Source: Alloacidobacterium dinghuense | GTDB lineage: Bacteria > Acidobacteriota > Terriglobia > Terriglobales > Acidobacteriaceae | Length of the DNA stretch: 64,000 nucleotides | Direction: 5' to 3' | Assembly: GCF_014274465.1 (NCBI RefSeq) | Contig: NZ_CP060394.1 | Span: 744,001 to 808,000, forward strand | In this document: one piece after another, positions 55,568 to 58,632 of the stretch | Numbering within the stretch: position 1 is the first letter of the stretch | How the letters are laid out: the number at the start of each line of letters is the position of its first letter | Translations under genes and position numbers: made by a program | The notes under the pieces: model-generated | What the model was told of the DNA's origin: nothing | Database searches by the model: none | Seen by the model: only the letters and a program-made list of their open reading frames with translations

Positions 55568-56626
55568 CTAACGTGAAGCAATGCCTTCCGTGATCTGAAT
55601 GCCACGCGGCACGGTGCGTCCCAGCACTGCCGCAATCTGCGCAGCCTCGTTCATCAACTGCACATATTGCTCAGGGTACAAAGACTGCATGCCATCAGAC
55701 AGAGCCTTGTCCGGCTGGTGATGCACCTCGACGATCAGGCCATCGCATCCCACCGCAACCGCGGCGCGGCCGAGAGGGATGACCTTGTTGCGCTTGCCTG
55801 TGCCGTGGCTTGGATCGACGACGATGGGCAGATGGCTCAGACGCTGGACGGCGGGCACAATGCTCAGGTCGAGCGTATTGCGGGTGTGATCGGCAAAGGT
55901 ACGTACCCCACGCTCGCACAGGATGACCTGATAATTGCCCTCGCTCATAATGTATTCAGCCGCCATGAGAAACTCTTCGAGCGTGGCGGCAATTCCGCGC
56001 TTCAGCAAAACGGGCTTACGCTTCCGGCCTGCCGCCTTCAGCAGGGAATAGTTCTGCATATTACGCGCGCCGATTTGGATCACGTCGGCATATTTGTCGA
56101 CCAGCTCCAGCGCTTCGTTGTCGATGGCTTCTGTAACAATCCGCAGGCCAAATTTGTCGCGAATCTCCGCCATAATCTTGAGCGCTTCTTCGCCTAGCCC
56201 TTGGAACGCATACGGAGAAGTGCGCGGCTTATAGGCTCCGCCGCGAAAGAACTGCGCACCAGCGCTGGCAACCTCCTCGGCCACAGCAAAGGCCTGTTCC
56301 CGCGTTTCAATCGAGCACGGACCAGCGATCATCGCGAAATCGCGGCCGCCGATCGTGGCATTTGTGCCGGGGAAGCGGATAATCGTGTCCTCTTCCTTGA
56401 CCTCGCGGCTCACCAGTTTGTACGGTTTTGAGACTTGAATGACTTCGGCGACGCCGGAAAGATCCTCGATATTGCCGCGGTCGATTTCTCCCTGGTTGCC
56501 GGTGATCCCAATTGCAGTGCGCTGCGCACCAGGCAGAGGATGGGGGCGTAAGCCTAATTGTTCAATCTGTTCGCAGACCGCCTGGATTTCCTCCGGCGTT
56601 GCCTGCGCTTTCATGACCACGAGCAT
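55568..56626 (-). CDS. aroF: 3-deoxy-7-phosphoheptulonate (DAHP) synthase
   Basis: A 352-residue type I-beta DAHP synthase, the first enzyme of the shikimate pathway, condensing PEP and erythrose-4-phosphate. The N-terminal ferredoxin-like regulatory domain ([20 protein letters not shown]) precedes the catalytic barrel, with [35 protein letters not shown] and [19 protein letters not shown] 56626 is the family start, with AAAGGT upstream; a longer frame begins with an unsupported GTG at 56692. It is the only shikimate gene here. A YVTN lipoprotein follows directly. Confidence 0.95.
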
Positions 56627-56786
56627 GGAGACGGACCTTTCTGTAACTTTCAAGTGTATCGACTTCCCCGTTGGGGAAGCAATGAGAGTCACCTGTCCAC
56701 ATTGTTCCGGACCGTTTCACGCGATACCCGGAAGCGCCCCGATTAATAAAATTCGATTCCGCGAAACTTTTTTTCAGAAAATCTGT

Positions 56787-56893
56787 CTTCGCTATGAGAG
56801 AGGCAACACTCCAAAGTGCTCAGCTTCTTCAAATAGCAGTAAACCCTCCTCGGACAACGAGGCTATCGAAAGATAGTCTCGTTGCTTTTTTTT
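56787..56893 (+). ncRNA. Putative small RNA, copy 1, with rho-independent terminator
   Basis: A 107-bp unit starting CTTCGCTATGAGAGAGGCAA. It holds a small stem CACT-CCAA-AGTG (56817 region), an unpaired AAACCCTCCTCGG containing CCTCCT (56845-56850), and a terminator: a 13-bp stem 56855-56867 / 56872-56884 with a GAAA loop and eight T. A second copy starts 128 bp downstream. Both copies keep the start, CCTCCT and terminator pairing while loops differ. No coding frame is conserved between them. Length, layout and terminator fit an independently transcribed small RNA. Confidence 0.7.
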
Positions 56894-56914
56894 CTAGCTC
56901 GCCAGCAGATTAAC

Positions 56915-57021
56915 CTTCGCTATGAGAGAGGCAACACTTTAAAGTGCTCAGCTTCTTCGAATAGCAGCAAACCCTCCTCGGACAACGAGGCTATCGGACG
57001 GTAGCCTCGTTGTTTTTTCTT
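56915..57021 (+). ncRNA. Putative small RNA, copy 2, with rho-independent terminator
   Basis: A 107-bp unit about 91 percent identical to copy 1 (ten differences). Its terminator stem is 56983-56995 / 57000-57012 with a GGAC loop and a T-run at 57013-57018. Two stem positions changed but remain paired (G-T to G-C; T-A to T-G). The small stem is CACT-TTAA-AGTG, and CCTCCT lies at 56973-56978. The duplication with loop drift but preserved pairing argues for function. Promoter boxes are not clear. Confidence 0.7.
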
Positions 57022-57036
57022 CAGCCCCAGCGCAGA

Positions 57037-57576
57037 TTATTCGATGCGCGTCGCCGTCAACTCCACCTGGACCTTTCCTTTGTCCTGAAGATTGTCAGAA
57101 GAAAAGATGATGGTAGGTTTCGTGATTGGAACCAACACGTTGGCGGACCACTTATTCGATCGAATGATTGGCAGCGCGGTTGACTCGGTGGTCGCAGTTG
57201 GCTCGGTGGTTCTAGTTGTGCTGCTGATCTCAGCCGTTACTGAGAGTGCGAGCTTGTTGTCGACTTCCAGCGCGCGCAGGGAATCGATATTCACGCCAAC
57301 GTCGATATATTGCACCTCACCCTTCTCCCGCTCAGTTAAGACCGGAACCTTGTCCCCAATCCTGATCTGCGCGGACGGACCGTTTCCAGTTGCAATAGCA
57401 GTAGCGTAGGTGCGGCTATTGGTAACTTTGCCCGTCTCTCCAACTTCCTGAACGGAGTAGGTGAGCCGGTAGTAGTGTGCGGGACTCTCCACTGTTTTTA
57501 CTTCCTGTTGTGCGGACATATCGATCGGTGCCGCGAAGAGGGCAAGCGCAAAGCAGAGGATGATAATTCGGCGCAT
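57037..57576 (-). CDS. Secreted protein of unknown function
   Basis: A 179-residue protein with a signal peptide (IIILCFALALFAAPIDMSA). The mature part has a beta-rich pattern: YYRLTYSVQEVGETGKVTN, RTYATAIATGNGPSAQIRIG and VPITKPTIIFSSDNLQDKGK. A threonine-rich linker (SSTTRTTEPTATTES) lies in the middle. It starts 14 bp after the anti-sigma-like gene and is likely in the same operon, which makes it a candidate target or effector of the ECF module. No family was recognised. Confidence 0.75.
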   Translation of the reverse strand: MRRIIILCFALALFAAPIDMSAQQEVKTVESPAHYYRLTYSVQEVGETGKVTNSRTYATAIATGNGPSAQIRIGDKVPVLTEREKGEVQYIDVGVNIDSLRALEVDNKLALSVTAEISSTTRTTEPTATTESTALPIIRSNKWSANVLVPITKPTIIFSSDNLQDKGKVQVELTATRIE

Positions 57577-57590
57577 GGTGGCTCCTGTCT

Positions 57591-58127
57591 TTAAGGTTGG
57601 GTATCTGAATCAAGATATGGAATGCTCAGTTCCGCGATATGCAAAGGCTCGTCGAGCTGCGTTCGCGCTTTCGCAACCAATTGCTGGGCCTTCGGCGGTG
57701 CATGCGCTGTGAATTGCATGAGCAACTGCTCCTGCTCGGTTGGAGCCGAAGGGGTAGGGAATTGGTCAAGTTTAGGCAACTCGCGTGGCTTGTGGTGAGC
57801 CGTCCCATGTTGCGCGACCTCCAACTTTGGGGCCGAAGATTGTCTGGGGACGACTACGGGAGTTGAGCTCGATGCAACGGATGGATTGTTTGCGACTTGA
57901 GGCCGAGTCTCAGCTTGCTGCCTGTAGAACAACGCCGCTATCAGGCAGCTAAGCATGGGAACAGCAACAGCGATGCCCAGCCACCAACGATGCTTCCGGC
58001 GTCGGGCCTCCACCGCAGCCATAACTCGCGCCGTCAGCGCCGGGGGATGGCCGCCGTCGCGGGGATCGGCGTAGGTGGCAATCGCCTGCTCCACTTCGGC
58101 TTCGAATTCAGGCGTGTCGAGCGGCAT
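57591..58127 (-). CDS. Putative anti-sigma factor, single-pass membrane protein
   Basis: A 178-residue protein. A cytoplasmic N-terminus of about 46 residues (FEAEVEQAIATYADPRDGGH; RVMAAVEARRRKHRWW) precedes one membrane helix near 48-68 (LGIAVAVPMLSCLIAALFY), and a Pro/Ser-rich periplasmic part follows. It overlaps the ECF sigma gene by 20 bp, the typical place for an anti-sigma factor, though the zinc HxxxCxxC motif is missing. ATG 58127 follows GAGGGAAAG; the longer frame is antisense-like to the sigma coding start and unsupported. Confidence 0.78.
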   Translation of the reverse strand: MPLDTPEFEAEVEQAIATYADPRDGGHPPALTARVMAAVEARRRKHRWWLGIAVAVPMLSCLIAALFYRQQAETRPQVANNPSVASSSTPVVVPRQSSAPKLEVAQHGTAHHKPRELPKLDQFPTPSAPTEQEQLLMQFTAHAPPKAQQLVAKARTQLDEPLHIAELSIPYLDSDTQP

Positions 58128-58632
58128 GGTTCTTTCCCTCCAGCGCAGCCAGCTTTTCCCGTAGCAGTTGGCGCGCGCGGAGCACACGCGTTCGCACTGT
58201 ACCTTCCGGAATCCCGAGAAGCTGCGCAACTTCGGACGAGGTCAACTCTTGAATGGTTGAAAGCGCGAGCGGCTGCCGAAGCTCTTCGGGCAGCCCATCG
58301 ATCAGGCGATGCACTTTCTGTTGCAGGTCGGCGTCGAGCGCGGTCTGCTCTGGGCTGGGGCGGCCGGACTCAATCTCAATTTCGCCCACCTCATGTGCAG
58401 GCTCGTGCTTCGGCAGGTGATCGAGAGCGACTCGCCAGGCCGCGCGGGCCAGATAGGCCTTTTCGTCTCGCATGCCATCCCATGCATTACCGCGGTAGAG
58501 CTTCAAGAACACCTCCTGCACCACGTCCTCGGCATCATGGGAATTACGCAGCACGGCATACGCGACGCGAAAGACAAGGCGGGAGTGGCGCCGGACACAT
58601 TCCGTGAACTTCGCATCATCCCGTTTTGCCAA
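58108..58632 (-). CDS. ECF RNA polymerase sigma factor
   Basis: A 174-residue group 4 sigma factor. Region 2 comprises HSRLVFRVAYAVLRNSHDAE and DVVQEVFLKLYR (residues 15-50); region 4 has LPEELRQPLALSTIQELTSS and EVAQLLGIPEGTVRTRVLRA (about 115-160). It binds core polymerase and redirects it to GAAC/CGTC-type promoters. The TTG start at 58632 has GGGAGAG ten bases upstream. It is followed by an overlapping anti-sigma-like gene and a secreted protein gene. A matching promoter upstream suggests autoregulation. Confidence 0.93.
   Translation of the reverse strand: MAKRDDAKFTECVRRHSRLVFRVAYAVLRNSHDAEDVVQEVFLKLYRGNAWDGMRDEKAYLARAAWRVALDHLPKHEPAHEVGEIEIESGRPSPEQTALDADLQQKVHRLIDGLPEELRQPLALSTIQELTSSEVAQLLGIPEGTVRTRVLRARQLLREKLAALEGKNHAARHA

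Follow-up and report, generated by a model that had tools for sequence, protein, structure and literature searches.

The sigma-E promoters of the enterobacterial rybB and micA genes, as described in PMC1804206, have the -35 box GGAACTTTT. The small RNA (sRNA) reported here resembles RybB and MicA in being a short intergenic sRNA with conserved flanking genes and an ECF promoter, and its CGAAACTTT is close to the sigma-E -35 box of those two genes (PMC1804206). However, the -10 element is GTGTTTA/GGGTC here and GTCAAA there, and the organisms belong to different phyla (PMC1804206). No Rfam model match places the RNA in the RybB or MicA family proper. A CCUCC-type anti-Shine-Dalgarno motif is common to this RNA and the CCUCCUCCC-loop sRNAs of Rhizobiales (SmelA075/SmelA099), but in the latter, according to PMC3927594, the motif occurs in three or four hairpin loops, whereas here a single copy lies in a linker and the family as a whole does not conserve it.

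Acidobacteriota are abundant in soils (PMC3174227), and a 2022 review counts only four distinct annotated sRNAs in this phylum (PMC9029176). Acido-1 (RF01686) and Acido-Lenti-1 (RF01687) are likewise candidate noncoding RNAs of Acidobacteria (PMC2864571). Neither model matches the window (the whole 64,000-nucleotide stretch of the Alloacidobacterium dinghuense genome that was analyzed) at gathering score, or positions 56700-57060 within it at E <=10. The first-pass annotation, made from the sequence of the window, did not recognize the family, and this agrees with Rfam: no model matches the window at gathering score, and a search of 56700-57060 at E <=10 returned only four unrelated chance matches (E 3.7 to 6.9). 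No paper on the RNA was found in a literature search that covered mainly open-access journals.

Comparative sequence analysis indicates that two units in the window belong to a real, previously uncatalogued RNA family of Acidobacteriaceae, that is, an sRNA family that is absent from Rfam and has a predicted ECF-sigma regulator. The best explanation as a whole, which we regard as reasonably probable, is that the family is read out by an ECF stress sigma factor and pairs with mRNAs. The promoter, which the first-pass annotation missed, is the most informative part of the feature.

Two units in the window

The plus strand of the window contains two 107-nucleotide units, copy A and copy B, that lie 128 bp apart and are 91% identical (Table 1). 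Both whole-unit folds have the same layout, which consists of a 5' hairpin, a CCCTCCT linker (56972-56978 in copy B), and a terminator with a 13-bp stem and a T-run. In copy A, the GC-rich stem is formed by the arms CAACGAGGCTATC and GATAGTCTCGTTG. A scan of 56640-57060 found exactly two terminators, those of copies A and B (shuffle mean 0.5). The fold z-scores of the units on the plus strand are -5.5 (A) and -4.8 (B), and none of 200 dinucleotide shuffles is equally stable; the opposite-strand z-scores are weaker (-2.6 and -2.7). Alignment, folding, and the terminator scan thus bear out the original description of the pair, including its spacing, its identity, and the 13-bp terminators with T-runs. 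The list of differences between the copies was also correct on checking: CCAA is replaced by TTAA in a loop, and G-U by G-C and U-A by U-G in the terminator, so that changes fall in loops or preserve pairing.

Table 1. Features of the sRNA locus, in window positions
Feature	Position	Strand	Evidence or remark
DAHP synthase (3-deoxy-7-phosphoheptulonate synthase) gene, divergent from the sRNA	55568..56692	-	Pfam, NCBIfam; synteny
Predicted ECF-sigma promoter of copy A	56762..56789	+	-35 CGAAACTTTT (56762-56771), -10 CTGTCTT (56783-56789); matrix score 23.5
sRNA copy A, about 100 nt	56791..56893 (homologous unit from 56787)	+	5' end uncertain, about 56791-56796; start inferred from -10 position
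5' hairpin of copy A	56791..56837	+	MFE fold of the 107-nt unit; another fold replaces it at starts 56793-56796
Linker CCCTCCT (56844-56850) and conserved core CTCGGACAACG (56849-56859) of copy A	56844..56859	+	Core exact in 58/62 loci
Intrinsic terminator of copy A, 13-bp stem and T-run	56855..56893	+	Terminator scan, fold; covariation on 24 homologues
Spacer, part of the duplicated segment, homologous to the sequence after copy B	56894..56914	+	Without ECF-like or sigma-70-like promoter
sRNA copy B, tandem duplicate without recognizable promoter	56915..57021	+	91% identity to copy A
Conserved core CTCGGACAACG of copy B	56977..56987	+	Sequence comparison
Intrinsic terminator of copy B	56980..57021	+	Terminator scan, fold
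Putative secreted protein gene, convergent with the sRNA	57037..57576	-	Sub-threshold secretin match; adjoins the sRNA in G003 too

The duplicated segment reaches through the spacer (56787-56912 versus 56915-57039), which means that unit and spacer were duplicated together in tandem. Copy B keeps its base pairing and is probably a recent duplicate. Among the 63 genomes with a match to the second covariance model described below (E <=1e-5), only the source genome has two matches; G003 has one, and in G001, which belongs to the same genus, no second copy is present in the 167 nucleotides of contig beyond its single copy. The best promoter-matrix score for copy B is -0.9, compared with 23.5 for copy A, and no ECF-type promoter was found for it; nor was a sigma-70-like promoter found in the sRNA region. 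To judge from these promoter predictions, copy B would be made only if the terminator of copy A leaks and permits read-through. The earlier suggestion that the tandem layout serves dosage or sequential use is weak, because the arrangement occurs in one of 63 genomes and copy B has no detectable promoter.

Within the window, a ccmC gene is found beyond the gene for the putative secreted protein. The latter belongs to a three-gene cluster beside the sRNA (57037-58632) that also comprises an ECF sigma gene (58108-58632) and a putative anti-sigma gene (57591-58229), which overlaps the ECF gene and has no Pfam or NCBIfam match. The same cluster adjoins the sRNA in G003.

Distribution and structure of the family

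A blastn search of 100 relatives gave matches in nine genomes, namely the source, six with true homologues, and two with partial matches (L009 and L011) that were dropped before counting. A first covariance model, which covers the 3' half and was built from eight sequences, found matches in 35 of 200 family genomes at E <=0.01. On reading, 23 of these were true and seven were terminator-only (L034 and L036-L041), and five weak ones were left unread (G100, G144, G158, G175, and G213). With the second model, built from 24 sequences, 63 of the 398 family genomes gave a match at E <=1e-5. All were read, and one match, to the terminator only (G159), was dropped. The units that the first-pass annotation pointed out therefore recur, as true homologues, in 62 of the 398 genomes (44 + 18 loci), which fall in 10 of 79 genera. 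Two loci, L042 and L048, are duplicates and were dropped. In a class-wide covariance search, 32 of 399 genomes match and every one is in the same family, with the absence beyond the family resting on Infernal's stricter filters.

Named genomes were scanned with a pattern that demanded CTCGGACAACG itself, and this yielded 45 stretches, 43 of them acidobacterial by label or by neighboring genes. Hosts include Granulicella, Edaphobacter, Paracidobacterium, and Acidobacterium MAGs. The stretch L242 resembles a chance match. Another stretch, L225 (CAJCHN010000148.1), is labelled Rhodanobacteraceae and contains the core of the sRNA and, in their normal order, the two flanking genes; it is probably a misbinned acidobacterial contig. 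The upstream neighbor is a beta-propeller gene or a DAHP synthase gene that runs away from the RNA in 39 of the 45 stretches, the others being L208, L228, and L236 (all three near a stretch end), L234, L245, and L242. Downstream, a ccmC gene runs towards the RNA in 27 of the 45, and L240 is rearranged.

The terminator covaries among homologues. Its pairs are formed in 95.7% of cells of the 24-sequence alignment and 8 of its 13 pairs have changed on both sides, counts that lean towards the structure because the alignment was fitted to it. None of 500 shuffles reaches this level of covariation, and slid controls fall to 20-55% paired. The first five terminator pairs, CAACG/CGTTG, are invariant in the 24 sequences. 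In L308:1-341, the base of the terminator has changed from CAACG to CAGCG, with a matching, compensatory CGCTG in the other arm.

The 5' part of the RNA was analyzed in 59 distinct RNAs whose start was set 6 nucleotides after the GTY box of the promoter motif described below. This set leaves out L225, L228, L242, and L015, the last because its terminator was missed by the regular expression. With the start so defined, the RNAs are 85-115 nucleotides long. At least 6 bp of 5' structure is present in all 59, with a mean z-score of -2.9 against mononucleotide shuffles, and 58 of the 59 score below -1. RybB and MicA have less 5' structure before the linker than the acidobacterial RNA. The covarying terminator and the universal 5' structure support the initial reading of the pair as two sRNA-like genes with intrinsic terminators, the structure of which is conserved in relatives.

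That reading also held that no reading frame is common to the units, and this extends to the homologues. Closed ORFs of at least 8 codons cover the core in 17 of the 59 distinct RNAs and are spread over all three frames. A coding function was rejected, because no frame over the core is common to homologues.

An ECF-type promoter and its candidate sigma factor

ECF-sigma promoters have AAC in their -35 box. The motif upstream of the RNA has the consensus CG(A/C)AAC(T/C)TT and a second element, G(T/G)GT(T/C), whose distance from AAC is 17-18 nucleotides in 42 of 43 aligned cases. The promoter matrix was built from the promoter of copy A and 42 others, that is, from 43 of the 44 loci counted, and the motif was first seen in, and then counted on, the same sequences. 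Counted in this way, GMAAC-N16/18-GTY occurs at a set distance from the core in 44 of 44 loci, compared with a mean of 0.135 and a maximum of 2 in dinucleotide shuffles; L027 was missed by the stricter regular expression of the promoter alignment and was found in this geometry-fixed count. The corresponding figure elsewhere in the same loci is 10/2781. The motif is also present in all 18 further loci (14 in a scripted count, and 4 with variant cores), and thus precedes the RNA in each of the 62 genomes, including at copy A. Among the named-genome stretches, it is found in 42 of 45. The exceptions are L228, which is cut at the stretch end, the chance match L242, and L225, a true homologue that has no promoter motif at the expected place. 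An ECF-type promoter that is located at a set distance and is kept in relatives is what is expected of an ECF-sigma-dependent sRNA.

The RNA is situated between divergent and convergent genes, where terminators are common, and it might on this account belong to the neighboring genes, as their conserved terminator or untranslated region, instead of being an RNA in its own right. However, the known neighbors either run away from the site or run towards it on the other strand, and both a promoter-like motif at a set distance and a conserved 5' structure are present, so we regard this explanation as very improbable.

Strict motif scans for more promoter sites gave one match in four genomes (0 control matches) and, in six genomes, 8 matches versus 8 control matches (3, 1, 0, 1, 2, and 1 per genome). 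Since matches equal controls in the latter scan, most such sites may be chance. The matches include L073, which is the sRNA of G310 and served as a positive control. In G050 (L065:1501-1909), the promoter motif lies about 45 nucleotides before the gene for a 111-amino-acid, secreted-looking protein without a Pfam match, which is a candidate for a further member of the sigma regulon.

Across the family, the same promoter motif precedes an operon that encodes an ECF sigma factor, an anti-sigma factor, and a DUF3106 protein. In the source genome (G000), the sigma factor of this operon is the RpoE-like L141:2874-3539 (minus strand; G000:C1 3178373-3179038). Behind it lie the anti-sigma gene, which matches NCBIfam antisigma with E 4e-10 but scores under the curated cut-off, and the DUF3106 protein gene. 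ECF sigma factors were compared by using 67 ECF regions from three genomes (30 of 65 in G000, 21 of 38 in G050, and 16 of 27 in G020), which are the stronger of 130 region-4 matches. When the 550 nucleotides upstream are scored with the sRNA-promoter matrix, the L141 orthologue ranks first of 30 in G000, first of 16 in G020, and second of 21 in G050. Over 1,000 nucleotides, the three L141 orthologues are found at ranks 1, 4, and 7 of 67 (scores 17.0, 14.9, and 11.7), with the orthologue in G000 third in its genome, behind L081 and L138; the reversed-sequence control over this length reached 19.6 once and 11.0 next.

The GMAAC-N16/18-GTY motif occurs upstream of 58 of 60 sigma orthologues (mononucleotide shuffle mean 3.0, maximum 9), a count in which L141 and L149 each appear with a downstream match that is due to chance, and in 8 of 64 paralogue regions, even though the sequence searched there was longer. 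The exact spacing of 17 together with an in-frame start codon within 6-18 nucleotides is found in 57 of the 60 orthologues, and L189, L196, and L200 lack this geometry. The spacing and the start codon just after the motif suggest that the mRNA of the L141-type sigma factor is leaderless and autoregulated. A motif at a predicted autoregulated sigma/anti-sigma operon is likewise expected of the regulator of an ECF-sigma-dependent sRNA, with the caveat that in 55 of the 57 orthologues no in-frame stop interrupts the motif, so conservation of the motif there could be partly coding. Stops occur only in L193 and L197, where they fall between the -35 box and the start, and the motif scores are 21.7 and 19.1, respectively. 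All 30 sRNA-bearing genomes tested have the L141-type sigma factor, as do 27 of 30 genomes without a reported RNA match (five of these 30 being outside the family); because the sigma factor is also common where the RNA is not reported, co-occurrence is uninformative.

Autoregulation is common among ECF sigma factors, although it is not universal, and the sRNA promoter might be read by some other ECF sigma factor, such as the neighbor encoded at 58108-58632 or one of the L116 or L101 type. This neighbor and its anti-sigma-like partner adjoin the RNA in G000 and G003, and in G050 the upstream regions of L116 and L101 score 15.6 and 14.7, compared with 14.9 for the favored sigma factor. However, L107, L091, and L130, which are related to L116 and L101 and come from the two remaining genomes, score low. 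The region upstream of the neighboring ECF gene scores -1.0, and among 23 loci only those of genus g1 (G000 and G003) have that gene next to the RNA, so the neighbor was demoted as a regulator. It is unlikely, on balance, that another ECF sigma factor reads the promoter.

With an L141-type sigma factor as the most likely regulator, copy A would give rise to an RNA of about 100 nucleotides, transcribed from a promoter that is read by this RpoE-like ECF sigma factor, which is encoded elsewhere in the genome in its autoregulated sigma/anti-sigma/DUF3106 operon. Stress would release the sigma factor, and the RNA would then accumulate as a noncoding member of the regulon, analogous to RybB and MicA.

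Linker, core and possible targets

Of the 62 loci, 58 have the core CUCGGACAACG without any change (44/44 and 14/18), a count that is taken from model matches only, because the named-genome pattern required CTCGGACAACG, and in which the covariance model itself rewards the core. The core of copy A extends five bases into the terminator stem. Across the 59 distinct RNAs, the nine positions before the CGG of the core are on average 62-87% unpaired, and the linker is usually pyrimidine-rich across the family. CCUCC is exact in 16 of the 59; at the same position, CTCC, CTTC, or CTAC occurs in 34 more, and another sequence in nine. The anti-Shine-Dalgarno motif is thus a trait of some genera, including the source genus, and not of the family, which does not have the conserved and unpaired CCUCC of a CCUCC-type anti-Shine-Dalgarno sRNA.

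The exposure of the linker in the window depends on the transcription start. CCCTCCT is unpaired in the whole-unit folds of both copies, as the first-pass annotation had stated, and with starts at 56787-56791 it has a mean unpaired probability of 0.88 in copy A. It is mostly free at starts <=56792 or 56797-56798, but this probability drops to 0.31-0.47 at starts 56793-56796; the corresponding drop in copy B, at starts 56921-56924, is from 0.95 to 0.17-0.18. In the window's copies, the 5' segment GAGAGAGG can pair with CCCTCCTC (56794-56850), so the linker is hidden or free according to the start. The statement that CCCTCCT is unpaired consequently stands for the whole-unit folds and fails for these intermediate starts.

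A competing fold between CCUCG and CGAGG of the terminator arm had also been proposed. The corresponding columns pair in 81-89% of cells, more than slid controls. However, covariation is at shuffle level in three registers, one of which is broken in 17 of 24 sequences, and no measure is clearly above shuffles in the three, so this switch was rejected.

The exposed CCUCCU led to the further idea of an anti-Shine-Dalgarno RNA. In this case, an sRNA with an ECF promoter would act mainly through CCUCC on many ribosome-binding sites, as might be expected from the unpaired CCCTCCT in both whole-unit folds, the 16 RNAs with exact CCUCC, and the usual pyrimidine-rich linker. What makes this mode of action doubtful is that CCUCC is inexact in 43 of the 59 RNAs, where linkers such as GATAACCCTCGG or TTTATTCTCGG occur, that it may be paired in the source genome at starts 56793-56796, and that the adjoining core CUCGGACAACG is better conserved.

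Conservation that enters the terminator stem is not explained by a simple seed model. It might point to a sponge or protein-binding RNA, in which CUCGGACAACG and the base of the terminator bind Hfq, another protein, or a second sRNA, and not mRNAs. The invariant CAACG/CGTTG pairs in the 24 sequences, with the compensated change found later in L308, fit such a role. However, the linker beside the core is pyrimidine-rich and, averaged over the family, mostly unpaired, which fits pairing with mRNAs; this role is therefore quite improbable.

Pairing of an ECF-sigma-dependent sRNA with mRNAs remains the favored explanation. The linker and the CUCGGA of the core are flanked by the 5' structure on one side and by an Hfq-type terminator on the other. 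They would pair at or near ribosome-binding sites, and this pairing would silence the mRNAs. A gene product for Hfq was found in 10 of 10 genomes tested, eight of which bear the sRNA. A linker before a U-run terminator in a host with Hfq is the sequence signature of an Hfq-dependent trans-acting sRNA, with the qualification that linker exposure is start-dependent in the window, and the RNA may accordingly require Hfq.

The target-site pattern TCCGAGNAG-N3/11-ATG occurs at 146 sites in six genomes, versus 94 for the reversed pattern, an excess that is expected from Shine-Dalgarno-like sites before ATG. Counts exceed the control in five genomes (for example, 38 versus 13 in G190) and are below it in G310 (20 versus 25). 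Two of the 146 sites are the antisense strand of sRNA genes themselves. Of 18 loci with the pattern that were examined, one (L294, in G020) precedes a gene for a CarboxypepD_reg secreted protein and is a single lead. Targets may perhaps include outer-membrane proteins.

We tentatively propose, as a possibility that falls somewhat short of probable, that the family represents an independently evolved RNA arm of an RpoE-like envelope-stress response, in which the sRNA silences envelope mRNAs (for example, those of CarboxypepD_reg-type receptors) via CUCGGACAACG and is controlled by a sigma factor with a near-identical -35 box. Because CUCGGACAACG overlaps the terminator stem, target pairing may in that case compete with the terminator hairpin.

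What is new here is an sRNA family that is conserved and has both a defined promoter and a predicted sigma regulator, in a phylum with few annotated sRNAs. Orthologues are present in the named genera Granulicella, Edaphobacter, and Paracidobacterium, so the link between the RNA and the sigma factor is directly testable. If the proposal of independent evolution is true, the RNA arm of an ECF stress response would have arisen more than once, with nearly the same -35 box.
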